From assembly GCF_910592395.1 (NCBI RefSeq), contig NC_088326.1, positions 749,001 through 813,000 on the forward strand: a stretch of 64,000 bases of DNA, in the 5' to 3' direction. A program made the position numbers and the translations under genes. Below, one piece after another: positions 10,909 through 62,600 of this stretch. A model generated the notes under the pieces. That model was not told the origin of the DNA and did not search any database. It was given only the letters and a program-made list of their open reading frames with translations. Position 1 is the stretch's first letter; every line of letters begins with the position of its first letter. This DNA comes from Lineus longissimus. Lineage: Eukaryota > Nemertea > Pilidiophora > Heteronemertea > Lineidae.

Positions 10909-16499
<5,591 letters not shown>

Positions 16500-19559: not shown

Positions 19560-22500
19560 TCAATATCGGACATTTTCATAAGCTGGTGGTTCCTCGTTAT
19601 TTACGATATTTGCTTGCTCCCGCCTATCTGTTCCGTGATGTCCTTCACCCTCCTCTGCATGGCGCCTGTACTGGTGCTCGTACAACTTGGCCTTGTTCAT
19701 CGGGGGCCCTGGAAGAAATTGTACAACCAATCAGTAATACGAGCTAACTTACAACAGAAGACATGACACTGACAACCAAACTCTGAGGGAACAAGAATGA
19801 ACTGGGCTGGAGCCTCCACTCTATAACATGTCTTGTCTACATTTAGTGTCGAACACCAAAAGATGAACTTCACCACTTACCAATATAGGATAGTAACACT
19901 GGCAAGAAGATAAGCCCATGGGACGCGCCAAATATCACGATGCCTAGATACATCCGGAAATAGAACACTTGGAACAGCTGTGACTTGGAGAACGCCAGCA
20001 CGATGATACCGACTAGCTTGGTCAACGTAATACCACTGAAAACCTGCAGAGAAATTGGACAAGTTAGGCAGAGCTACCTGAGAACATGCAGAAGAACTGA
20101 CTCTGTCTCAACCATTCTACCACATGTGTTCAGTTTGTTTGATACTACTTCTGTATTGGACCAGGCCTCCCTCCTGTAAGCAGGAGTTGGTTGCCTCCCT
20201 GGTTAGGCAACGATTAAGGCTGTTTATGTTTCTCACTTGGATGAGGTCTTTTGTTTGCCAAGGCATAGGCACCAGGTACAGGGAAACATGGCAATCACTT
20301 GCCCAAGATCACAAGTAATAATTTGAAGAACATTTGAAGAAAAGTTATACGTTCGCTACTTTTGAGTCGTAGAGTTGAATGCTGTACCGAGTTCACAGGG
20401 CACATGAACACTTACTGAGCTTCCCATATTAGCGAGAGCATCCTTAGCGCGACGCACTCTACTACCCTCTATACTCATGGCGAACTTCCTGACAATGTGA
20501 GAACAGAACTCAACACCAATACCAACGGTCTGCAATGAAAATCAGTGAACATTAGAACAGATATCATCACATACACAGTTCTGAATGTTCTTTCTACCTC
20601 TTGTGGCTCAAGACAAAAGTTTGGCAGTTTTCAAGTTCACGTAGAACATAGAAATTTCTATTCCTATGCTTTCATAAGGATGTTATCGGTGACTTACCAT
20701 GACTAAGTTGACGAGTGCGACCGCGTTCAGCGATATACTCCACATGGACATCATACCCAGCATGCTAACAACAATCATCGCCACGACGATGAGGACAATG
20801 ATCGCCGACCAGAGATCGATTCCGAGTAATAGGAACGTGACGACGAAAACGGCGGCCATACAGAGACTGAGGTTGTACCAAGTGTCGTGGACGATGTGTA
20901 GGTACTGCTCGTAGTAGACATAGAAAATACTGAAAAGATGAGAGAACAACTTTGATATGATCTCACAAAAAGTCACCTTCAGTAGGGTTCAATCTTCAAC
21001 AACTGTACTATTGTATCAATGCTGTGACAGGTGCACACTAATTATGGCCAAGGAATACAATTTTTGCTTTCTTGAGATTTTCTAGAAATTTTTTTTTCAA
21101 ATTCTGAGAAAAAAAATTTTCTTCAAAAACTCACCTGTAAGGGAACACTGTATAGTTGAGGTTATCTCCCATACCCGTACTGTTCTGAATCGTCATGGTG
21201 ATGTTGTCGGCGATGATATAAGCTTGTTTTAATCCGTCAATGTAATCAGCCGAAGTTTTTAGGATTGTGTGGTATGTCATGAAATAGGTCGAACCAATCT
21301 GGGTATTGTTGTCAAGTAGTTTGACCGCTGACCCATAGGCGGCGTGGCCTCTGAAAATAAACAAAATACATTGATGAATAATTTACTGTAAAAATCACAA
21401 CTAAAATTCAAGTAGCCCAGAAAACAAAGAATCGGAGTGGCACTTTGCTGGAAACTAAAATTACAAAGAGTCGGGCCAAGAAAATGGATTTGCCTAAAAA
21501 GCACAAATTTGATGACCAGAGTCAGGCCTTGGATGTAGAATTTGAGGCACCTGGATATATTTGACTCTCATGTGCCACTATAAACTGGCCTTTCTTACCC
21601 TTTAGCACATTTTGTTCCTGGATTGTCCTTCAAAAACCACGGTAAATACTTCATGAAGTCATCTGGATCCGGCCGTCCCTGCGTCTTTTCGATATGACAT
21701 GTTGTACACGTCCTATTCTCCACTGTAGCGGGGCAGAATCCATGGTCTGGTGTTGTATATTCCCGACAACACGGAGGATTTCCACGGGGGTCCGTCCAAT
21801 CAACAAAATCATCAAGCCAAGATGTTGCAGGCTGCGCTATTCTTGTTCTGGAGAAAAATAAATGGATTTTAACGAACATGCAGGCGTGATTAATCGAATG
21901 AGAAAATGAAATAGTTGACAGACAACATGCTCATCAGTTGTATGGAAAACAGGTAGTCATCGCAGTAAGCAATTTGTTGTTGATACCTCTGTGACCTCAC
22001 AAAGTTTATCAAGGTCAATATTTTTGTTGACTGTTGAGCTGAATTTATGATACGTATTGAAGGTCTGTTGATATCTTGAGCTATGGTCAAAAAAGGATTT
22101 TAAGAGATTTGGACTGACACACAATAGGTTAGTCACACTGGTATGTAACAAAAACCAATAACTTGATTCCGATTCAAACTTAATATTTTACAATTTTCTT
22201 ATTTCTTTAAAGCAACTTACGAATTAGGGTCTTTTGATGCTGTGTAAACCTGTCCAAGCAATGAGTCCTGCGGGCATCCAGTCGCACCGCATATCATATC
22301 CTGACCGGCGATACTCGTATAGTCATGGCCATTCCCGACGACAAAATAAACAGGGGGTCCAACGTGAAGGTAGTCCTCCAAAGCCTCGAAGTATCTTAAG
22401 ACGTACGAGTCACTCGGCATGGAGAGTTTCTGATCGAGACCAATTTCGAGTTTGTCAATCATAGCGACGCAGGAGCAGAACCATCCCGTGAAGATGACCA

Positions 22501-25500
22501 TCTGAAGTGGAATGAAGAGAGTTCAGCTTTTTAACTTTTCTTGTTTTTTTCCATAACTTATAACGTTGACACTAATAACTATTCTTCTTTTTATCACTGT
22601 CAAGACGTTAAAGAAATTTGTCATGAGGATTCTTAGCCTTGAACAATTCTACTCACAACAGTCGCCCTGACCCAGTCGGCCATCAGGAATCGGGAGTAAT
22701 ACTTCTTGAAGAAATTGAGCAGGAATCCATCAGTTGGAACGTAGTCGGTCTTTTTGTTTTCTCTAAAACAGCAGGCAACATCATAGCGGTTCGACTGGAA
22801 GAAACAAAATCAAAATGAATATTTCGAAACATATATACTTACAACTAAGAATGACATTCCTCCTGTGAAAGGCATTCTGTGGTTTGTTCTTGTCATCTTC
22901 AGTTTGCCGCTGCAATTTGCCACTTACACCTGCCACTCAGTGCTTGGGGGAAGACTCTTTAACCCTATCTCTAGGAGCAACTAACAGGTGTCTCTCCTAT
23001 CTTACATTACATCGACTCTATTCATTTCTACTGGAGGAATGTCTTTATAACCAAGTCAAACTTCAACTCCCTAACCTTGCACACCAGACCTAACTCCCTA
23101 ACTTTGTATACGAATGACCAAAAGATCACCAAGCGAACCGCCTAGCTCCTGCCTATAGTCCGTCTTTCAGAATCAAAAGCACGTACCTCTTGTCGTTTTG
23201 AGTCAAGTGACAGCAAGCTGATGAAGGCTGTGACCTGGAACAGGAAGTCAAAGAGGACGGCCCCGCCGGCGTAGAGTGAGAACATCTGGACTGCCGGCAT
23301 TGACGTCAAGGCACCTAGGGGAAGACGAAGACATCAAAAACAATCAGGAACACATGGAAATGCGTTTAGAGGTTACGTTTGGAGAGTTGAAGGTTTTCAG
23401 AGGTCAACCTGGAGTCCCCTCGCTGGGATTGGTCGTCTGGTTTGCTGCACTCAGCACAACCCCACAACCAGGTACTCACTGCCGCAGCAGGGTCGTAACT
23501 TCCCCTGGCCTCCTTCCATACATCCCAACCAAGTGCTTATGCTGTACTGTCATTCCTAAACACTAGGGAGATTAAAAATCAGGTTACTCACCAAGGAAAA
23601 ACGCGACAGACTCTGACGCACTTGTCAGCAGCATACTGGGACCTATCCTGCCGAGTATTTTTCCGATTTGTTCCTCGCGGCTTTCCATGGGTCCCCGCGG
23701 ATCCCTCTGGTACGCTTGCACGAGAATGAAGATGTTATCGACGCCGACCGCCAGGACGAGGAAAGGTACGACTTCGATGATGATCAAACTTGCTGGGAGT
23801 CCGCAGTAGCTGAAGATTCCAAGGGAACATCCAACAGAAAGGAGGACGATGAGTACTCCAGAGATGCCAAGGGTGACTTTTGAGTCGATCTGAAAAAAGT
23901 CAGCATGCAGTTGAGATTAGTAACAGTCATGTAGTGGTTTAAAGCCGTGGTCAAACAGTGGGAAGAAGAAGGGATTAGATCAATACCAAGTTACCGAGAT
24001 CTTCACCAAGACCTGCCAAAAGAATCAGGCTAACAAGAATCTCAACTTTCAGCCAGAAAAAGAACTTTGAAGCTTTTGAATCCTTGCCGGCAAGTGAACA
24101 AGACTGTAAGGATATCTGACTCACTCTTGGTTTATCGAGTGGTGAATAAGCTATATGGAATGATATGGAGAAGATATACTTACAAAGATTCTGTCAAAGG
24201 AAGTGAACTGGCCGAGGGTGACTGAGATATAGCCAAACATGAGCAAATAGCTCACCAGGATTGTAAAGATGTCGGAATTGCTCTCCCTGTTAATCTCATC
24301 TTCGACAGAACGCTGAAACGAAAAATATTGAATTTTAAGTTTTTTCTACGATTTTCCACAGAAGCTGTATGTTAAGCACTTTGAAATCTGAATTTTCTAG
24401 TCAACATGAAGGAGCAGCTGATAGCAACATTTCCGGGGGTCAAGAAGCAACAAGACTTACCTCAGATGAAAAGTTCACAAATATATTATTATCCGCAGGC
24501 TTGGCATATCCTTTAATGAACTCAATGAAAGCCTTTTCCCACGCCATGGCCTTTTTGTATTCGATGGAGTCTCGAACTGCGTTATTCACCGAAAATGTGA
24601 TGACAATCGCCGTAGCGTTTTCGTAATTTTCCTCGGGGAATCCACCAAGTGCTACCCACGGGAAGATGGGGCCACCGTACGTTCCGAGACACGATGTGTT
24701 GAATTGGCCAGTGTCTTGAACAGAGGCGGGCGACCTAGAATCGTAGAATGAAATCAAATCAATGAAATACGGCGACATATTTTGTACTGAAATATTTTTT
24801 GGAAATTTGAACAAGGTTACACAAGAATCTGCTCAATGTGGAGCTGCTTTATTTCTGCTCTATTTGAAAGAATAGAGAGGAATACTGGCCAAAGGTCACC
24901 ACCTGCACCACAAAGTTCTTTGCGGAATTCTATAGGACTGCCACTACCAATGCTACAGCCAGAAAATAGCCAAGGCATAAGTTGTTTTCTTTGACCAGAA
25001 GCATGCATTCAAGTCACCATGCTGGCAAGGTAAAAGCTTACAATAAACAAACCACTGGACGTTTTAAAGCGCTAATGAGATGTTCTCACCAAAAGCGTGC
25101 ATTTCAGATCGATATTTTGAATGTCACATTACACAAGTCTTCATCACCGAATCAATGAGGCCTGTCAATTACACTAAGTGTGGCTCTGTACTATTAAGTA
25201 GATCAGTTGAAAGCTTTTCTAGCTTAAAGCGACCACCTCAGTTATGTTGCCCAGATGGCAGTAAAACAACTCACAGCTCACATCATGCAATCTGGACCAC
25301 CTCAGTAATGTTGCCCAGATGGCAGTAAAACAACTCACAGCTCACATCATGCAATCTGGACCACCTCAGTTATGTTGCCCAGATGGCAGTAAAACAACTC
25401 ACAGCTCACATCATGCAATCTGGACCACCTCAGTTATGTTGCCCAGATGGCAGTAAAACAACTCACAGCTCACATCATGCAATCTGGACCACCTCAGTTA

Positions 25501-28500
25501 TGTTGCCCAGATGGCAGTAAAACAACTCACAGCTCACATCATGCAATCTGGACCACCTCAGTTATGTTGCCCAGATGGCAGTAAAACAACTCACAGCTCA
25601 CATCATGCAATCTGGACCACCTCAGTTATGTTGCCCAGATGGCAGTAAAACAACTCACAGCTCACATCATGCAATCTGGACCACCTCAGTTATGTTGCCC
25701 AGATGGCAGTAAAACAACTCACAGCTCACATCATGCAATCTGGACCACCTCAGTTATGTTGCCCAGATGGCAGTAAAACAACTCACAGCTCACATCATGC
25801 AATCTGGACCACCTCAGTTATGTTGCCCAGATGGCAGTAAAACAACTCACAGCTCACATCATGCAATCTGGACCACCTCAGTTATGTTGCCCAGATGGCA
25901 GTAAAACAACTCACAGCTCACATCATGCAATCTGGACCACCTCAGTTATGTTGCCCAGATGGCAGTAAAACAACTCACAGCTCACATCATGCAATCTGTT
26001 AGATTGAAATAATGATCAGCCACATGCATTGGTTTTCACCAATTCTAATTTTCACTAACTTTTTGCCATTTGGTACTGTGGCCAATTGTAGCAACCCCTG
26101 GCAAATTGCATGCGTTCTGTAAGTTTTGGCTAAAAGCACGCAACCCTGAGTTGCCGTGGTAACTGCTGCTACAACTCACCGCACGCAAGAAATAAAGTGG
26201 TCGATATAATCAGCATTTCTTAACAAGTGATATGGATCCATAACTATACGATTCAGAGTTGTGTTGTCATTTTGAAAGTAATTCAACACACTCAAAATAG
26301 TACAGTTTTTTATTTTAGGACTTAGTGGCATGAAACAGATATCGTTAAGATATATAGGTTCAGTGCCGTAATCGCCAGTGTATTTGCCAACAACGTTATT
26401 CACGATATTCATCTGAAGAGTCAGAATCTGAAAAGATCAAAACGACATTGACATATTGAAAAATAAGTCAGTAATTTTCTGTGACAAACTCTCCAAGTCA
26501 ACCTGCTGAAGAAAGTAAACAACATTAACACTTCCAGTGCCAGCACTCACCTAACGCAATACATAAAGTGATCAATATAATCGGCAAACGTCAGGAAACC
26601 CCACTCGTCCTGCTTCTTCATATCCAGAGTTGTCTTATCATTTTGAAAATAGTTCAGCACACTCATAATCGTACAGTTGTTGTTATCGGGTCGGAGCGGT
26701 GCAAAGCAGATATCTTGAAGCCCGATAATCATGTCTAGTTCAGGGAAAGGGGCGACTATTTTTTCAATTTGTAACTGCAGGGCCAAAATCTGAAATAGTT
26801 TACATGCAAGTGTGAAAGATGACAAAACTTATCAATTGATATTCTTTCCCAATGCTGATACACCTCCAGTAACAAGGAATCCCCACTCTACATACCATTC
26901 GGAGGACTGTCCTCATAGCAAACACAAGCAATTCTAATTGCGGTAACCTATATTATTCAATTGCTGGAATGTGCAATAACTGATTCTTGTCACAGGCATC
27001 TGACCACCACATTTGAGCAAACAGCTCAGGACGTACCTCCTCCAAAATGTCTAATTTGAGAGCAGTACTAAAATTCCTTGTTCCTGTGTTTGGGGCCGAG
27101 TCCTTTCTCTCCCAATATTTGCCGTGTTTTGTGGTATTCACCGTGATGATCAACTGCTCAGTGCGGAAGAAAGGCCTGCAAGATGAAGCGACAGTTGAAG
27201 ACAGAGATTCCTAGCAAAACACGCTATGTGACTCGTCACAGCTAAACTAGGCGAATATCACTCTTAGCTTGGCAGATTGAGACAGACTGATTGATTCATT
27301 GCATTGTGACTGCCTTTTGTGAAATCTGAGTACATCAATTGCATCCATTACCTCTTGGTGTTATTTGGGATCATCTTCTGTGTATTGCTGTGACGGGTCA
27401 CAATACATCTTTTTTTGAATTTGAGAAAAATTACGTCACAGATCGGAATCTATTTGAAAATGCCACTGATGTCCATCTGAAGAATAACTTACCCAAATGT
27501 GCTATCGTAAGTCCTCTTCTGCACGCGAGCGGTGCTGTCTGGGGCGGACCACAGCTGGACGGGATCAGTCACAACATCAAACTTGACAATACCAATACAG
27601 AAGATGATGGCGATGACCAACACGACCGAGAGAACAGTGAAAGGATACGTCGCAGCGATAGTTCCCCAGCGTCTGAAAACGAAAGCAATATTACATTTTT
27701 AGGACCAAAAACAGAAAAATTCATCCCAAAACAAACAGATCATGATATTATTGGTACCATTTTGCTGATTGGGAGTTTTTTGTGACGTCACAGTGTTAGA
27801 GACGCCACAAACAGCATCTTTTCAATCTGTGACGCAACATGTAAAAGTACAATCAGCCTAATTAGGACCACCACAGGTCAGTTCAGTAGCTGCTTGAGCC
27901 TCTCATAACTTGGTTAATTGGATGCGCTGGGATTTGAAACATTTACATTGACCTACCTGAATCCAAGTTCCAAAAGACGTTCAAATTTGGCTCCGATTTT
28001 TTCCAGACAGCCAATACTTTCCAATGAAACAACCGGTGGTTCACTTGCTCCTCTCTTTCGGTGTATCGGCTCACCAGGTGTCACTTGGGTATCAAGGGTG
28101 CTGAACGAACCGGGACCATCCGGATCCAATCCGAAACCGTCTCGCAGGACGATAAGATACCAAATCTGATAGGTGCAGAAGACGAGAAGGAAACCGGCAA
28201 AAACGCAGAACATAATGAACCACATTGCATCCACACCAAGAATCGTCCACGGAGGTGGAAGAACTTTAGCAGGGGGTGGAGGTCCACATGATGCTATACA
28301 ATCTTGACAACTGCATGCTTGGGTGTCATTGTTCGGAGCAAAATTACAAGGTGTGATTGTCTTATTCATCGGGACGAGCGCGGTCGAGTTCTCAACCAAA
28401 ATCGGCATGTCGGTGACATTGTAGTTGATCCCGAATGGGACGCCTACATTACCCTTCGTCCCGATGAACTTAAAGACATCTGTAACATTGCAGTCTTTGA

Positions 28501-30619
28501 TGTTCTTATTCCCACAAACCAACTGGAGAGACTTTCCATTAGAGCTCGGCATCTGGACATCCTTGCACGAGTTGAAGAACCCAAGCGCATAGTCCCACGT
28601 CATGGCAAAGTCTACATGCTCCACGTAATCCTGCGCCGTCACGTTATTGACGTAACCGAGCATGAAGTCGGTCTGGTAAGGGTCGCACGTGAACGCGCAA
28701 AACATGTTGATGAAGTTTCTCAAGCATGCCGGACATCGCCCAAAGATTTGAAAAGGTACGGCTAAATTTGTGTTCAATGTTTTCAGTTGCTTGGCACTGC
28801 AGCATGTCAGCGGATTTTTGCCTGTAAATGGAAGTAAAGGCACATGAAAATCATAAGAATGATATCGAGACTTGCCCGCCACTGGTTCTAGGTGCCAAAT
28901 TCCCTTGAAATGTAACCTGAGCTCACCCTACAAAGGACAAAGCGGCAACCAGACCAGTCAGGTTTCGAAACTTAGACCGTCGGATTGAGAGTCTGGCACT
29001 GTACAGCAAGCTACGCCCTGCGCCGCTAATGCTAAGAGTCAAGACAAGTGCAATACTTACCAATGGCATACTGCGGGCACAAGTCGCCCAAAATCTTGAT
29101 GGCGTCGGTGTCATTAAGTGGCTTGGCCGGTCCGGTATACGGGAGATTGTGTGTATCGTCTTCATAGACGCCATACCAAAGACAGTGACCTTGTTCACCG
29201 TCAGTCACACACTGGAAAGAAAATGAAACATTGCAGTTTCGTCAATCAATCAATCAATCAATCAATTTATCTTGTTTGGTCAGAAGGGGTTAAATGAGTA
29301 TTTTCATGTAATGCAGCAGACTGACAATACAAGCATATAGGAAAACAATCAATCCTTCTGTGATACGAGTTGACATTTAGAACAATGCCAGTGCATTGTA
29401 CTTTGTAGGTTCATATCATAGTCCACTTCCTTGAATGATGGCAATTAACTGTGCAAACCAAACAACATGAGACTATGATGGGCATCAGCTGCTAGCTGAC
29501 TAATCCAACAATCTCTTGGTCTTGTTTTTCTGATCGCCATTCAATAACTAGATGCAAGATTCTATGTTGCAAGAGATGGATGTTTTTATGTGATATCATC
29601 TTTAATTTTTGGGTCGCAATGTCGGCACTGAACCAAACTACATGAGAGTTCCTGCAGTGAACAAACATAGCATAGAATACTTTTATCTCTCAGTTTTAAC
29701 CCGGAAACCTGAACTCAAGATATCGCTTTACAGAGATAACAGTATTGATCATTATATATTCTATATCATTTAGATATTGACCCGACGTACCTTGGTCTCA
29801 TAAAAAAGGTCAAGAAACACGGCCAGAGACGATTTTATAAGGTCAACGAAATCAAATGTACATGTAGAACCTCTTTAATAAGGACACCCTCGGGACTGAA
29901 AAGTACTGTCCTTAAAAGAGAGGTGTCCTGATTAGAGAGGTAAAATTGAATGGTAACAACCAATTTGGTACCAAAACCAGTGTCCTTAATAGAGAGGGTG
30001 TCCTTATTAGAGAGGTGTCCGCTAAGGGAGGTTCTACTGTACATGTAGCAACCTGGCAGGCATAAGACCGATCTCCTTCTCCTTCAGTATAGGCCACAGT
30101 CTACATAATATAATCAGCTCTTCTAAAGTGCAAACTTTAGTTAGGTGTCTACGTTCAAATCACAAGTCCTTCCAGGTTTCGAAAGAAAACTTTTTGGGGT
30201 TTCTTTCAGAGAACAATCACAAAGGGTTAACATGAACTTGGCCCGATTGACAAAAGAGAACACTGTGATTGAATCAGCGAAACGTTTTCATTGTTGCAAT
30301 GATCAATGATTTTGACAAGACAAGACAAACTCGAAAGAACAAATGCCACTCGAATGAAATAATTAGGCCCTAGTCTTAATTTTTCTGCCCTAATATGGAG
30401 AATAAAATTAACAAGACCTACGACGCGACTCATGATGGCTAATTCCTACCAAAAGGTGAAATACCCATCTTTTAAGGGGTAAACTCATTGCGATTATATA
30501 AATATACAGATCATTTGTATGAACATACAAACATTTATGCAAACTGAAACTCAAAACTGACTCACCATGCAAAACAGCAATGTGAATGCTACACCTAAAA
30601 TCAGATGTAATTTCTCCAT
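19560..30619 (-). CDS. NPC1 intracellular cholesterol transporter, complete, with alternative exon 6
   Basis: Lysosomal membrane protein that receives cholesterol from NPC2. Exons (minus): 30566-30619, 29061-29211, 27957-28821, 27493-27672, 27037-27175, 26551-26789 (6a) or 26180-26427 (6b), 24461-24734, 24184-24312, 23592-23889, 23187-23314, 22657-22794, 22221-22501, 21599-21847, 21135-21350, 20698-20929, 20416-20529, 19881-20043, 19560-19708. All phases agree; the product is 1332 aa with 6a, 1335 with 6b (human 1278). Visible parts: signal peptide (first 17 residues), Cys-rich N-terminal sterol domain, CSCQDC segment before the first core helix, middle luminal domain (exons 4-7), sterol-sensing domain (exons 8-10, [20 protein letters not shown]), Cys-rich luminal loop, last helices. 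Exon 3 is one 865-bp exon. The tail ends PPAYENVRY and lacks the vertebrate LLNF lysosomal signal. Identification is secure. Confidence 0.96.
25231..25998. repeat. 64-bp tandem array, exactly 12 units, in NPC1 intron
   Basis: Twelve units of 64 bp with almost no divergence (one T-to-A change, in unit 2). The array lies in the intron between exons 6b and 7 and starts 182 bp past the 6b donor on the transcribed strand. On that strand each unit contains GATGTGAGCTGTGAGTT, that is, two 5' splice-site-like hexamers (GTGAGC and GTGAGT). There are no spacers, so it is not a CRISPR array. Confidence 0.97.
26180..26427 (-). other. NPC1 alternative exon 6b
   Basis: 248 bp, acceptor TTTTCAG and donor GCG|GTGAGT, entering in phase 0 and leaving in phase 2. 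It encodes a homologue of exon 6a: both contain [23 protein letters not shown] and ADYIDHF..CVR. It differs strongly in the first 25 residues and in the segment before ADYIDHF (PYHLLRN here against WGFLTF in 6a). No stop or splice defect is present, so it is not a decayed copy. Confidence 0.9.
26551..26789 (-). other. NPC1 exon 6a (more human-like copy)
   Basis: 239 bp, acceptor ATTTCAG and donor TAG|GTGAGT, phase 0 to phase 2. It contains [23 protein letters not shown] and [18 protein letters not shown], closer to human NPC1 than exon 6b. It is separated from 6b by a 123-bp intron. Confidence 0.93.
28960..29036 (-). repeat. Degenerate tRNA-derived SINE-like sequence
   Basis: On the minus strand GGGCGTAGCTTGCTGTACAG resembles a tRNA acceptor/A-box. 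It is followed by an anticodon-arm-like AGACTCTCAATCCGA and a degenerate B-box, AGTTTCGAAACC. It sits in NPC1 intron 2. Weak evidence. Confidence 0.3.
29242..29267. repeat. (TCAA)n microsatellite
   Basis: About six TCAA units in NPC1 intron 1, just upstream of exon 2. Confidence 0.95.
29859..30047. mobile_element. 189-bp terminal-inverted-repeat element in NPC1 intron 1
   Basis: The ends begin TACATGTAGAACCTC and, on the other strand, TACATGTACAGTAGAACCTC; GTCCTTATTAGAGAGGTGTCC-like motifs recur inside on both strands. It has no coding capacity. A partial relative is at about 57896-57965. Confidence 0.75.
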
Positions 30620-32089: not shown

Positions 32090-35719
<3,630 letters not shown>

Positions 35720-36967: not shown

Positions 36968-39921
<2,954 letters not shown>

Positions 39922-42993: not shown

Positions 42994-46788
<3,795 letters not shown>

Positions 46789-53661: not shown

Positions 53662-56600
53662 TTATTTCTTCCGAGAAGAATTTGGGCGTTTGTAGGAGCC
53701 CCCGCTCGACCCCGCATTTGTGAGCTGCGAATTTGAACCAGATAGACTGCCCATGCTCCGGCGAAGACCTGCAGGCATGGTACCGGATCCGGTCGGCGTC
53801 TTCACAGATCCTTTTCGGCGTTTCTTGTCCATGATGAGCTTGTCGTGTCGTACGAAGATGCCGCTACGGGATCGAGCCTTGAAATAACGAACTCCTTTCA
53901 CTGTGCCGTCATTTTTACCTGGAAATACAAGGATCAAGTGTAAATCTTTTGTCACAATGGCTGGAATAGCGTGGCTAACCAAAGTAATCTTTGTGATGCT
54001 GGCTCCAGGCAGACCGCCAAGTTTCGTCGCCATGAAGATTTGGCCTGAGTGACCAATTTATAATATTTTGGCTGGTGCAGCCAAGGAGCATGTGGTCGTA
54101 CCTTGTGGCTGGTCCAGTTCCACACCAACCCATGGCCCGCTTGCGAATTCTGTCGGCCCGATGAACTTCACGATACCACTCTGACTTGGTCCGCCTCGCG
54201 ATGACAGCACTTGGACGCTCTCACCAATTTGGATCCAAGATGGCACGGGGCCGGAGTGGATGCGATCCAGGTCAGCTCGGCTGCCGAATGAGCAGAGGCT
54301 GACCCCGTCATCTTCACCATCTGAAATTTCAATATGCATTTTCTTGATCAAAATGATTAGACCGGTTTGTCAGAGTGTGGAAAGTCAGGCTGAAGAGTGA
54401 ACTGTTTACTCCAGGCTGGCCATTATCTGTTGAAGGTATTCTGTTGATCCCTACAGCTTCTTTCCTCATGTTCATAATGAACAATTCTAAAAGGCCTGGG
54501 ATGGAAAATGCCTTGGGCCTGGTTTTGATCGTAGTGGGCCTTCGTATCGCAACCAAGGACCGCTTAGTATAATTATGTGTTATAAGCTAATGACAAACTC
54601 ACCAGAAGTATACCCTTCAGGAGACTCGACACCTCGATGCACACCACTGACGTCATTCTCACCATTTAGAGCGCCCTCTAATGACTGCATGCTGGAACTA
54701 AAATCACTATCGTAACTCTCTTCCAACTCTGCTTTTTTCTTCTGCACGGAGAGATTGTCATGTGACCCGGGTAATCGTGCCCCCGGCTTCAACGGCGATG
54801 GCGCCATTTTATTCAATTTATGCTCGGGCATACTGCGCCTGTTTTCTCGCGTGGCCTCCCTCTTGGAGTTAGTAACCCGCGGATCAAGGTTTAACGATTT
54901 ACGCACATCTCCGCGTAATCTCACTCGTTCACCGCTAGTCCTACGCACTACTTTTTCATGGTCCTTTATTTCGCCATGAGTGACCGTATCACTACTCTCG
55001 CTCCTCGGCGACTGTAAACTGTCCTCACTGTTTTCTTTCTTCAAATCGCCAGTGCCACTGTCACTACTATTGGCGGTCACCGTTCCATCCTCCTTCTTCG
55101 GCTCGTTAATCTCACCTCCCAGGGCTTCAAGCTCATCCATGGCAGTTTCGCTATACAAGTCTATTGCTTCGACCTTCTTACCCTCACCTTGACCTTTGAC
55201 CTTACCCTCACCTTGACCTTTGACCTTACTCTCTCCCTCATTGCCATTCTGGTCCCCAGTTGCAACAACCTCACCAGTTTTCACAGAAACGTCACTCACA
55301 TTCTCGACAGATTCCACCTCAGACTTTTTCTCTGAATTTCCAATATTTTTCTCGGAACTTTCAACCTTCGCAGAATTTTCCACAACTTTCCCAGAATCAA
55401 CCTTGTTCCCAACAGAAACCTCAATAACTGATTCCGAGTCCGCCTCACTGGACGAACCCTTCATTTGGGATTCTCCCCCGGAAATCTCATTGTTTCCCGG
55501 TAAAACTGGTTTCATCGGAAGCGACAAATTCTCATCTGCGACCGCCAAATCAATCAGATTTGGAGTATCGCCCTCCTCGCCATGTTCGCCGCCATCTTTT
55601 TTATGATTAGTGCCATCTTTTGATTTCTCCGCATGGTCGGGCGTCTCGTCAATACTCATGCTTCGAATACTCGCTGAATCCTCCGAGGATAAGGTCAAGG
55701 TCGAAACAGCCTGCGACCCGTAACCGCTCGACGTCATACTCGGTGTAAAACTCTTCACCGCCTGGATATCAACCAAACTTTCCGTTGTCGACGAATGTGT
55801 GATGCTATCCGTACGATTAGTCATGATTTTCTGCGCCGTGTTTTGCGCTGCATTTTGAGTTTCCGTTTGTGATTGGTACGATTCGAATTCGGTGAAGTCA
55901 TCGTCCGATGCAACAGTGTTTTGATTCTCTGGCTGATCCTGTGGCTTTTCTGCCTTTTGTTTGTTGAGTTCGTCAAATTCATCGCCGGACTGAAAAAGAG
56001 ACATCAAAAGTTAGAAATCACAGTGTCTGTTATTCCACAGATGGACCTTGTATCCAGTGACATGCTTATGATCTTACACTTTCGATAAACTGAAGAGACA
56101 GTAGATTAACTTGGCAAGACGCTGAACATTGGCAGAGCTACAGAACGGTAGACTGGCAAACAAGCTGAAAATACGTCACTGATACAGACTTTTTAAGTTC
56201 AACTCATAACTTGACACTTTGAGTAAAGAAAACAAACGATAGTTGGCATTTCCAAAGAACTAATTGGGGATCGATATCCAGGGAGTAAAACATGTTAATA
56301 TTAGTTTTCGAAGGCATAAGCTGAATGGTTAGTACTTCACACCCGGCCAGTTTTTAGTCAGAAAGCAGTAGGACTGATTGAAATGGCAAGGGACCAAGAA
56401 GGCAGGGCCGCCCCAGCTTAGGAGAAGAGGAGAGTTTCCGAAGAAAGCAACTCTGTAATAGGATAACACACAGAGGAAAGGATTGGCCTGCAGAATATCT
56501 TCTGGGACTTGAGGATTCACTACCACACCAAAACAGTTCAATTCCCCAATGACCGTGAACCATTATGAGGTCTAGTTCTGGGTCATACCACCAGATGTCA

Positions 56601-59600: not shown

Positions 59601-62600
59601 GTTTTTTAACCTTGGACTAACAGTTGTAAACTCAAAATGCTAGAACAGAATATTTTAGTAGATAAAGAAGAAATGAATTAATTTTCAACAAAATTGAAAT
59701 TGAAACCTTAGATGTCAATTTGCTAACTCATAATAAATTCCTTCTGACCTTTTCAAGGTCAGGCTACTGACCTAGCCTGACCCTTGTCAGGCTAAAACGC
59801 CATTCATTGCAAATTCGGAATTGTTCAGGAGTCTGTCATGCAGGGACAAAACTGTACATATCAACAATTTTCAACCCCATTCATGCACAATATGCAAATG
59901 ACCCTAAATATGCAAATTATGATCAATATACATGCAAATGACATCACAGGTCAAAGGTCATGAAGTACAAGCTAGACTAGACTTGAAGTGGGTCTGACAA
60001 TCAGCGTCCAATAGGTATGCAGGATACAGTGCTGAAATATGCAAAGAGATCAAAGGTTAAAGGGTAGATTTAAAGGGTAAATGGCTAGCATGAAGAACAT
60101 GCCTGTTGCAAAGAGCAATTTCGTAACTTCACAAACATACATTATAGATTTTGATCGACAAAACAGAAAATTTCATTGCCAAAGTGCAGAAAATGAGAAT
60201 TGGACGAAAGATTTTCACCAAAATATACCCTTTAAATCAAAGGAACTTAAATACGAAAAGAAACCTGAAGAAAGATGAATATATAAGGTCAAAGGTGAAG
60301 GTCATGCAACATGCAATACACTACTGAGGGAAACTGAACAAAGGGCCGTTGGAGAAACTGTCCTTGTAGAAGTTGTGTGGCCGAATAGCTTCTCGTCAAA
60401 ACCCATTATAGCCAAGTCTTTGGTTGGATTCATCAATGAAAGGTCCCAAGCCATTTTTACTTACAATCCACCAACTAGGCAAGTCCCCTCAAAGAAGGAG
60501 TGAGGATTCTTCCCCCAACTGGACAGTTCCTCCAACCACATTCATAGTTCTGATATCGAAGAGAAAACATGGGAAAATTATTACAGAGATCACAGAAAGA
60601 GGGCGCACGATGCATAAATACATGCAACGGCATCCAGGTGCCTGTCACATGACCTAGAGACTCCTACACGATTGGTGCTCAGGGTTCTTACTAAAAGGTG
60701 GAATCGTTCAACAAAATTCTATTATACGAAAACCGTACTTCAATATGTTTTGACACGTGTCTGCTTTAGTAGAAGAGACAAAATATGATTCCACCTTCTA
60801 CAAGAACCCTGCGAGTCATGTGACCTAATACTGCGTTGTGATTGGTGGCACATACGTTTAGAAGAAGCGAACGTGTTAGTTCTTGTCAGATTCAGGAAGT
60901 TGGGCCTCGCTGCAAGAAAGAGAAATACACGGGATATTAGTGTCGGAACACCGTCTATTGGCCGAGTGTCTTTGTGTGGGCGGTTGTGAGTGAGACGTCA
61001 GCCAGGGTCTTTATCAATCTTTAGCATGACCTGGAAATGGTTGCTCATTTAACTCTACTCTTGTAAATGAAGTTTACTTGAGGAGAAGTTCATTATTGTA
61101 GATGTGTAATCTGTAAAATAACTGATATCATCGGTGTAACACTGGTGAAAAATATAGATAGACATGCCAGTTACATGCGGTCATGTAATCAGACCTATGC
61201 ACATCAGTGTACCCATGTGTCGCACATCAGTGTACCCATGTGTTGCACATCAGTGTACCCATGTGTTACACATCAGTGTACCCATGTGTCGCACATCAGT
61301 GTACCCATGTGTCGCACATCAGTGTACCCATGTGTTGCACATCAGTGTACCCATGTGTAGCACATCAGTGTACCCATGTGTCGCACACCAGTGTACCCAT
61401 GTGTCGCACATCAGTGTACCCATGTGTCGCACACCAGTGTACCCATGTGTCACACATCAGTGTACCCATGTGTTGCACACCAGTGTACCCATGTGTCGCA
61501 CATCAGTGTACCCATGTGTCGCACATCAGTGTACCCATGTGTCGCACATCAGTGTACCCATGTGTCGCACATCAGTGTACCCATGTGTTGCACATCAGTG
61601 TACCCATGTGTAGCACATCAGTGTACCCATGTGTCGCACACCAGTGTACCCATGTGTCGCACATCAGTGTACCCATGTGTCGCACACCAGTGTACCCATG
61701 TGTCACACATCAGTGTACCCATGTGTTGCACACCAGTGTACCCATGTGTCGCACATCAGTGTACCCATGTGTCGCACATCAGTGTACCCATGTGTCGCAC
61801 ATTAGTGTACCCATGTGTCGCACATCAGTGTACCCATGTGTCGCACATCAGTGTACCCACGTGTTGCACATCAGTGTACCCATGTGTTGCACATCAGTGT
61901 ACCCATGTGTCGCACATCAATGTACCCATGTGTCGTACATCAGTGTACCCACGTGTCGCACATCAGCATACCCACGTGTCGCACATCAGTGTACCCACGT
62001 GTCGCACATCAGTGTACCCACGTGTCGCACATCAGTGTACCCATGTGTCGCACATCAGTGTTCATTCAACAGCCAAATCAAGGAAGCAATTTTCAATTGG
62101 GCATTGTTCGCAATTCAAAATAAAGTAGGCTCAAAGCATGAGGCTGGTATAGCTAAAATCATTCAAGTCAGCAAAGATTAACACAGACAAAGTAATCCAT
62201 TCGCATGCATTTCCGGTTCGTCCTCAAAGATAGTTAACCAGAACTGCTGTGTAACATTAACCTACATCGCCTGATACAAATGTACAGTAAATTTTACCAA
62301 CTTGCATTGAAATGAAGTTAAGCAGACGTTCATATCAGAGGTCAAAGGTCAAATGAATACAGAGAGTGTACAGAGCGAGGTCTGTGGACAGAGAATAAGC
62401 ACCACCTTTTAGCCATAATGTGAAACAAAGCACATTCTGCCATCAGCGTGGAACAGCCAGTCTACACATCTGTGAACTATTTTTTGTGCCCAGATATTTA
62501 AGCTGTGAAGTGTAAACAGAATTATAACAAGAACTACTTTCTTTAGCGGAGAGTTTTCATTTTGAACTTACCAAGGCTGAATGCGGAGGGTGATTTGTCC

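Follow-up and report, generated by a model that had tools for sequence, protein, structure and literature searches.

The model we propose for the NPC1 gene of the nemertean Lineus longissimus is that of one gene in which two homologous exons, 6a and 6b, serve as alternatives, and in which the 6b form of the protein is probably tuned to another NPC2-family partner or to another cargo. The pair would have been generated by an ancient tandem duplication of one exon in the only detectable NPC1 gene, and 6a and 6b would now be spliced as alternatives. Transcripts with both exons or with neither of them would suffer a frameshift and an early stop and would presumably be destroyed; NPC1 protein would come only from the transcripts that carry exactly one of the two. 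The resulting proteins would differ over a segment of about 80 residues in the middle luminal domain and be identical elsewhere; the segment takes in one of the two loops by which human NPC1 touches NPC2. In the most likely case, 6a would give the form of general use, and 6b a version that changes faster and is tuned to another NPC2-family partner or cargo. That the gene gives two productive forms, the use of 6b being predicted, is in our estimation highly probable; given two such forms, there is about an even chance that the choice of NPC2 is the trait in which they would differ.

The window analysed is the whole stretch of 64,000 nucleotides of L. longissimus DNA (contig NC_088326.1, positions 749,001 to 813,000), and the parts of the gene on which the model is built are the following.

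19560..30619, minus strand: NPC1 coding span, with exon 1 at 30619-30566, exon 2 at 29211-29061 and the last exon, which carries the stop, at 19708-19560.
27037..27175, minus strand: exon 5, shared by both forms, with the counterpart of NPC2-contact loop 1 (human 421-424).
26551..26789, minus strand: exon 6a, the one in NCBI isoform X2; 239 nt, entering in phase 0 and leaving in phase 2.
26428..26550, minus strand: intron between 6a and 6b, 123 nt, with a decoy acceptor TTCAG inside it (26510-26506).
26180..26427, minus strand: exon 6b, the homologous copy and predicted alternative; 248 nt, entering in phase 0 and leaving in phase 2.
24461..24734, minus strand: exon 7, shared, encoding the later part of the middle luminal domain.

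Spliced with exon 6a, the model agrees with P0007 at 100% of 1332 residues; P0007 is the NCBI protein labelled "isoform X2" for L. longissimus, and the label implies at least one further annotated isoform. P0007 contains, in this order, the domains NPC1_N (26-266), NPC1_MLD (409-635) and Sterol-sensing (678-830), all above the Pfam cut-off. An earlier, sequence-only reading of this DNA had delimited the exon pair, and its coordinates, exon lengths, 123-nt gap, splice borders and phases are all retained here. Both exons have AG/GT borders, i.e. ordinary GT-AG sites, and of the model's 18 introns, the one that separates them is the shortest. The homology that had been claimed between the two copies holds as well (tblastn within the window, E 1.5e-20; 43 of 79 aligned residues identical), and no third copy of the exon was found, either in the window by tblastn at E below 0.5 or among the genome matches. 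When the splice sites were scored by leave-one-out on the 18 donors and 18 acceptors of NPC1 itself, 6b obtained 9.0 for its donor (gene range 4.2 to 13.2) and 14.1 for its acceptor (range -0.7 to 15.2), and 6a obtained 11.6 and 10.2, respectively; the 6b sites are, as proposed, not disabled. The adjacency, the homology, the equal phases and the intact splice sites by which mutually exclusive tandem duplicated exons are recognised are thus all found in this pair.

The breakage of the reading frame was also correctly predicted: in codons numbered from exon 2, the presence of 6a and 6b in one transcript leads to a stop at codon 527, and the skipping of both leads to a stop at codon 496. By sequence logic, double inclusion and double skipping would both be unproductive. 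The claim that exactly one of the exons can be used stands as far as this reading-frame logic goes, and does not stand as an observation of splicing. The same early stops, given by both unproductive combinations, could be put to another use if 6b were mainly a poison element, 6a-6b joining or double skipping cutting the dose of NPC1 via mRNA decay while a 6b-only protein would matter little. The decoy acceptor before 6b agrees with such a role, for its use would extend the transcript by 78 nt that include an in-frame stop. A poison exon, however, has no need of a conserved protein frame, yet 6b keeps 22 of the 23 conserved NPC1 columns described below, and we consider this explanation quite improbable.

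Elsewhere in the window, three tandem alpha-tubulin-like genes lie on the minus strand (32830-34418, 36968-38561 and 42994-44688), each with a separate first coding exon (Pfam on one). At about 12200-15600 on the minus strand is a gene whose domains, a CW zinc finger and an amine oxidase, lead us to liken it to KDM1B/LSD2. An exon encoding a CAP-Gly domain (53665-54057, minus strand) adjoins a 476-codon open frame (54583-56010) for which no Pfam match was obtained, and a 23-bp tandem array of 37.5 copies, open in several frames, extends over 61199-62061.

The evidence that exon 6b has been maintained as a coding sequence comes from its comparison with 6a and with the NPC1 family. Over the 79 aligned codons, 6a and 6b agree at 53, 56 and 29 of the first, second and third positions, respectively. 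The dN between them is 0.42; dS was not computable by two methods, and hence no dN/dS ratio is given. An exon-6 profile was built from 71 NPC1 proteins out of 112, leaving out P0007, 33 proteins judged NPC1L1-like and 7 that were fungal, plant, fragmentary or very distant. Against this profile, 6a scores 104.2 bits and 6b 89.3 bits, the range of the family being 67.6-130.3, and at the columns that are at least 80% conserved across the 71 NPC1 proteins, 6a keeps 23/23 and 6b 22/23. Simulated neutral descendants of 6a, 400 for each setting, were scored against the same profile. Their median and best scores were 41.3 and 74.2 bits at 0.25 substitutions per site, 10.9 and 40.8 bits at 0.5, 0.0 and 22.4 bits at 0.75, -1.0 and 12.5 bits at 1.0, and -1.4 and 4.3 bits at 1.5. 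This last setting, at which 10 of the 400 copies were without stops, is the nearest to the observed third-position identity (28.0 versus 29 of 79). Because of the codon-position pattern, the 22 conserved columns and a score of 89 bits versus a neutral best of at most 12.5 at like divergence, 6b is, to judge from its sequence, no old relic, and both copies are constrained at the protein level; a recently silenced exon could also pass the neutral test. Furthermore, agreement at third positions is higher in the 3' part of the exon (22 of 47 codons) than in its 5' part (7 of 32), a contrast of which conversion or splicing signals could be the cause.

The explanation by which 6b is a recently silenced duplicate, out of use, must be weighed against the protein records and the history of the exons. 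Two 6b-aimed searches of a 90%-clustered protein database, whose clustering could hide such a form, returned no 6b-type protein: the first gave six vertebrate NPC1 proteins and the second gave nothing. Clusters are often represented by their longest member; P0007, a representative, is the shorter 6a form, and this counts somewhat against a clustered 6b form. In an exon tree computed from the segments of 33 of the 112 proteins together with 6a and 6b, 6a groups with the protein P0008 (87/87 support) and 6b is placed elsewhere, with an end branch of 0.71 versus 0.21 for 6a. The lack of a 6b form in both searches and its longer end branch are what a silenced copy would give. On the other hand, the frame of 6b is intact, its splice sites are inside the range of those of the gene's other exons, and its protein-level constraint exceeds that of the neutral copies, with the reservation on recent silencing made above. 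Taken with these observations, the silencing of 6b is very improbable, the least probable of the explanations considered here. The duplication itself looks old, without a date. Its dating from the tree was given up, as 6a joins P0008 and yet a clade of 6a and 6b is not rejected (p-AU 0.40). The NPC1 isoforms of beetles (four clusters) were also discarded as a parallel: the middle-domain segment is identical in three of them and differs at few sites in the fourth, with no exon swap.

As had been proposed from the letters, both copies are NPC1 middle-domain exons, with Pfam NPC1_MLD matches of 81.2 bits for 6a and 66.1 bits for 6b (residues 1-82) against a cut-off of 27. Structural models of each exon were predicted from alignments of 33 rows, of which 31 came from the 112 proteins and the other two were 6a and 6b, and both models are of moderate confidence. 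The best PDB match of the predicted 6a-only structure (pLDDT 79.2, pTM 0.44) is 5kwy_A, the human NPC1 middle luminal domain, with E 5.4e-6. That of the predicted 6b-only structure (pLDDT 69.3, pTM 0.37) is 5hns_A, again the human NPC1 middle luminal domain, with E 8.2e-4, the sole match under 0.001; the predicted 6b fold has a further match in 5u73, and the part of human NPC1 that it resembles is domain C. In the alignment, exon 6 corresponds to human NPC1 residues about 443-517. The NPC1 residues that touch NPC2 are given as Q421, Y423, P424, F503, F504 and Y506 in PMC10855982, which cites 5KWY. The placement of an NPC2 contact in the exon pair by the sequence-only reading is right, as the counterparts of F503, F504 and Y506 lie inside exon 6 in the alignment; those of Q421, Y423 and P424 are in exon 5, common to both forms. 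The choice of exon is thereby predicted to swap one of the two NPC2-contact loops, that of the human 503-506 side.

The loop peptides are those that had been quoted, WGFLTF in 6a and PYHLLRN in 6b. At the places of F503, F504 and Y506, 6a aligns the hydrophobic or aromatic residues F, L and F. At the place of Y506, 6b has N, with R adjoining, and the placement of gaps makes its counterparts of F503 and F504 uncertain. Mosquito NPC1 proteins have all six NPC2-contact residues changed, according to PMC10855982, so that a change in the loop is by itself no proof of a change of partner. Two productive forms could exist and their difference could serve folding, glycosylation, stability, or the sterol or pH range, and not the choice of NPC2. 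The differences between 6a and 6b are spread across the exon (6, 9, 11, 7 and 10 identical residues per 16-codon block, the last block being of 15), and its start has diverged as much as the loop block. Moreover, 6b carries one N-glycosylation sequon (NTT) more than 6a, and its acidic residues number 7 instead of the 11 found in 6a. Against this explanation, which we regard as unlikely, the block leading into the NPC2-contact loop, with 7/16 identical residues, is among the two most changed, and the genome contains 14 exon matches to the NPC2 family.

The tuning of the 6b form to a partner or cargo, which is the reading we prefer, can be set beside the content of the genome (391,118,348 bases in 30 contigs). 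A six-frame search for NPC1_MLD, which a very divergent paralogue could escape, gave three matches, all of them exons of this NPC1 gene (7, 6a and 6b), and points to a single detectable NPC1 middle-domain gene. For PF02221, the family that contains NPC2, there are 14 exon matches, to be taken as a minimum: three on contig C3, one on C15 and ten on C13 within 14.60-14.88 Mb. These figures count exon matches and not gene models; several matches read into stops, and dead copies may be among them. Twelve of the 14 were translated, and the motif CPxxxGxx[YQ][ST][YF] is present in all 12. The eight translated members of the C13 cluster (14597591-14883209; loci L017-L023 and L025) form two nearly identical groups, and this cluster is evidently a recent local expansion. 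One member from C3 and one from C13 were compared with the PDB, and both are closest to the NPC2 of 5KWY (E 1.3e-13 and 2.5e-7, respectively). The contrast between one NPC1 middle-domain gene and 14 NPC2-family exon matches makes the partner idea more plausible, and a tuning of NPC1 to several NPC2 partners by splicing would fit these numbers of genes and exon matches. The full extension of the model, in which an expanded NPC2 family would be matched by one NPC1 through an exon-swapped docking loop, perhaps under RBFOX control, is tentative and in our judgement somewhat doubtful.

The RBFOX part of this extension concerns two features of the introns that flank the pair.

26803..26808, minus strand: UGCAUG, beginning 19 nt upstream of exon 6a.
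25231..25998, minus strand: minisatellite in the intron after 6b, 12 copies of a 64-bp unit with 99% matches, homogenised, with one sense-strand UGCAUG per unit.

The intron after 6b contains 14 sense-strand UGCAUG, 12 of them in the minisatellite, and 900 of 5000 shuffled versions of the 64-bp unit contain UGCAUG. Outside the array, the same intron has 2 UGCAUG versus 0.5 expected, a number reached by 171 of 2000 shuffles, and 4 GCAUG, reached by 67 of 2000. In the window outside the array, UGCAUG occurs 32 times on the minus strand versus 16 times on the plus strand. It is found at most 50 nt upstream of 4 of the 18 NPC1 acceptors (window positions 23909, 21882, 20090 and 26808, minus strand), three of which are those of the constitutive exons 9, 13 and 17, and its reverse complement does not occur within 50 nt upstream of any of the 18. 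The genome contains an exon for an RBFOX-type RRM (86% over 35 residues).

According to PMC3585155, the RBFOX proteins ASD-1/FOX-1 of C. elegans switch egl-15 5A/5B and unc-32 7a/7b via UGCAUG, egl-15 exon 5B being repressed from its upstream intron and unc-32 exon 7a requiring the UGCAUG site in intron 7b. For FGFR2 exons 8/9, PMC2880598 describes the repression of exon 9 by Fox2 through UGCAUG in the preceding intron. Like these three systems, the Lineus pair combines exons predicted to be mutually exclusive with UGCAUG in an intron that flanks them. In egl-15 and FGFR2 the motif precedes the exon that is repressed, and in unc-32 it lies in intron 7b. By analogy with the former, 6a would be repressed by the site that precedes it; by analogy with the latter, the sites after 6b would favour 6a, which is the opposite of favouring 6b. 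These patterns point opposite ways, and an RBFOX effect could favour either 6a or 6b. Function was demonstrated by reporters for unc-32 and FGFR2 and by mutants for unc-32 and egl-15, whereas in Lineus NPC1 there are motifs alone, most of them in one homogenised minisatellite. The shuffle counts, the counts on the two strands and the motif before constitutive acceptors speak against such a role, and the participation of an RBFOX-type factor in the choice, towards either exon, has a low probability.

Other mechanisms of exclusion were rejected. Docking/selector RNA pairing between the flanking introns is not distinguished from chance, since pairings at least as good as the real ones were obtained from 20, 33 and 44 of 60 dinucleotide shuffles. 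Between the 6a donor and the likely branch point, a CTGAC some 40 nt ahead of 6b, there remain about 80 nt, and the usual minimum spacing for splicing is about 60 nt; with this distance, a strict steric block of 6a-6b splicing is not expected. An incompatibility with minor (U12) splicing is set aside, as both exons have ordinary GT-AG sites.

Tandem duplicated exon substitution, that is, the mutually exclusive use of homologous exons, is a well-known class of event, for which PMC9741552 surveys 236 human events. The Lineus pair is like this class in its adjacent homologous exons, predicted to be used one at a time and to give proteins that differ in one homologous region. It is unlike the human set of PMC9741552 in that the region concerned is the luminal partner-docking domain of a sterol transporter, and in that the use of the second exon is predicted here. 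NPC1 has 0 occurrences in the main text of PMC9741552, and the passages considered in PMC9771820 do not bear on NPC1 exons. Among the matches listed in the full-text literature, those on nemertean splicing included, there is no report of mutually exclusive or tandem-duplicated NPC1 exons, in agreement with the earlier statement that no NPC1 exon pair of this kind was known, and NPC1 appears to be a new member of the class within the literature searched.

The known duality of NPC1-type proteins is of another origin. Vertebrate NPC1 and NPC1L1, both of which were among the protein matches, come from separate genes, whereas in Lineus two forms would arise from one gene by exon choice. Drosophila has Npc1a and Npc1b, which are likewise separate genes, unlike the predicted single-gene exon pair of Lineus. 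Two NPC1 proteins are described for Aedes in PMC10855982; these, too, come from separate genes, and the Lineus forms would differ from them in being produced within one gene by the choice of an exon.

In conclusion, our observations bear on the hand-off between NPC1 and NPC2, which is the gate for the exit of cholesterol from lysosomes. Little is known of how far the partners of this hand-off may vary, and least of all in invertebrates whose NPC2-like proteins are numerous. One gene with two natural middle domains, and with products identical elsewhere, would be a clean, built-in experiment on the residues that govern the choice of NPC2 or of cargo. If the model is true, exon choice in Lineus would do what other animals do with copies of the NPC1 gene, and splicing would set the choice of partner in lysosomal sterol export, for which flies, mosquitoes and vertebrates use separate NPC1-type genes.
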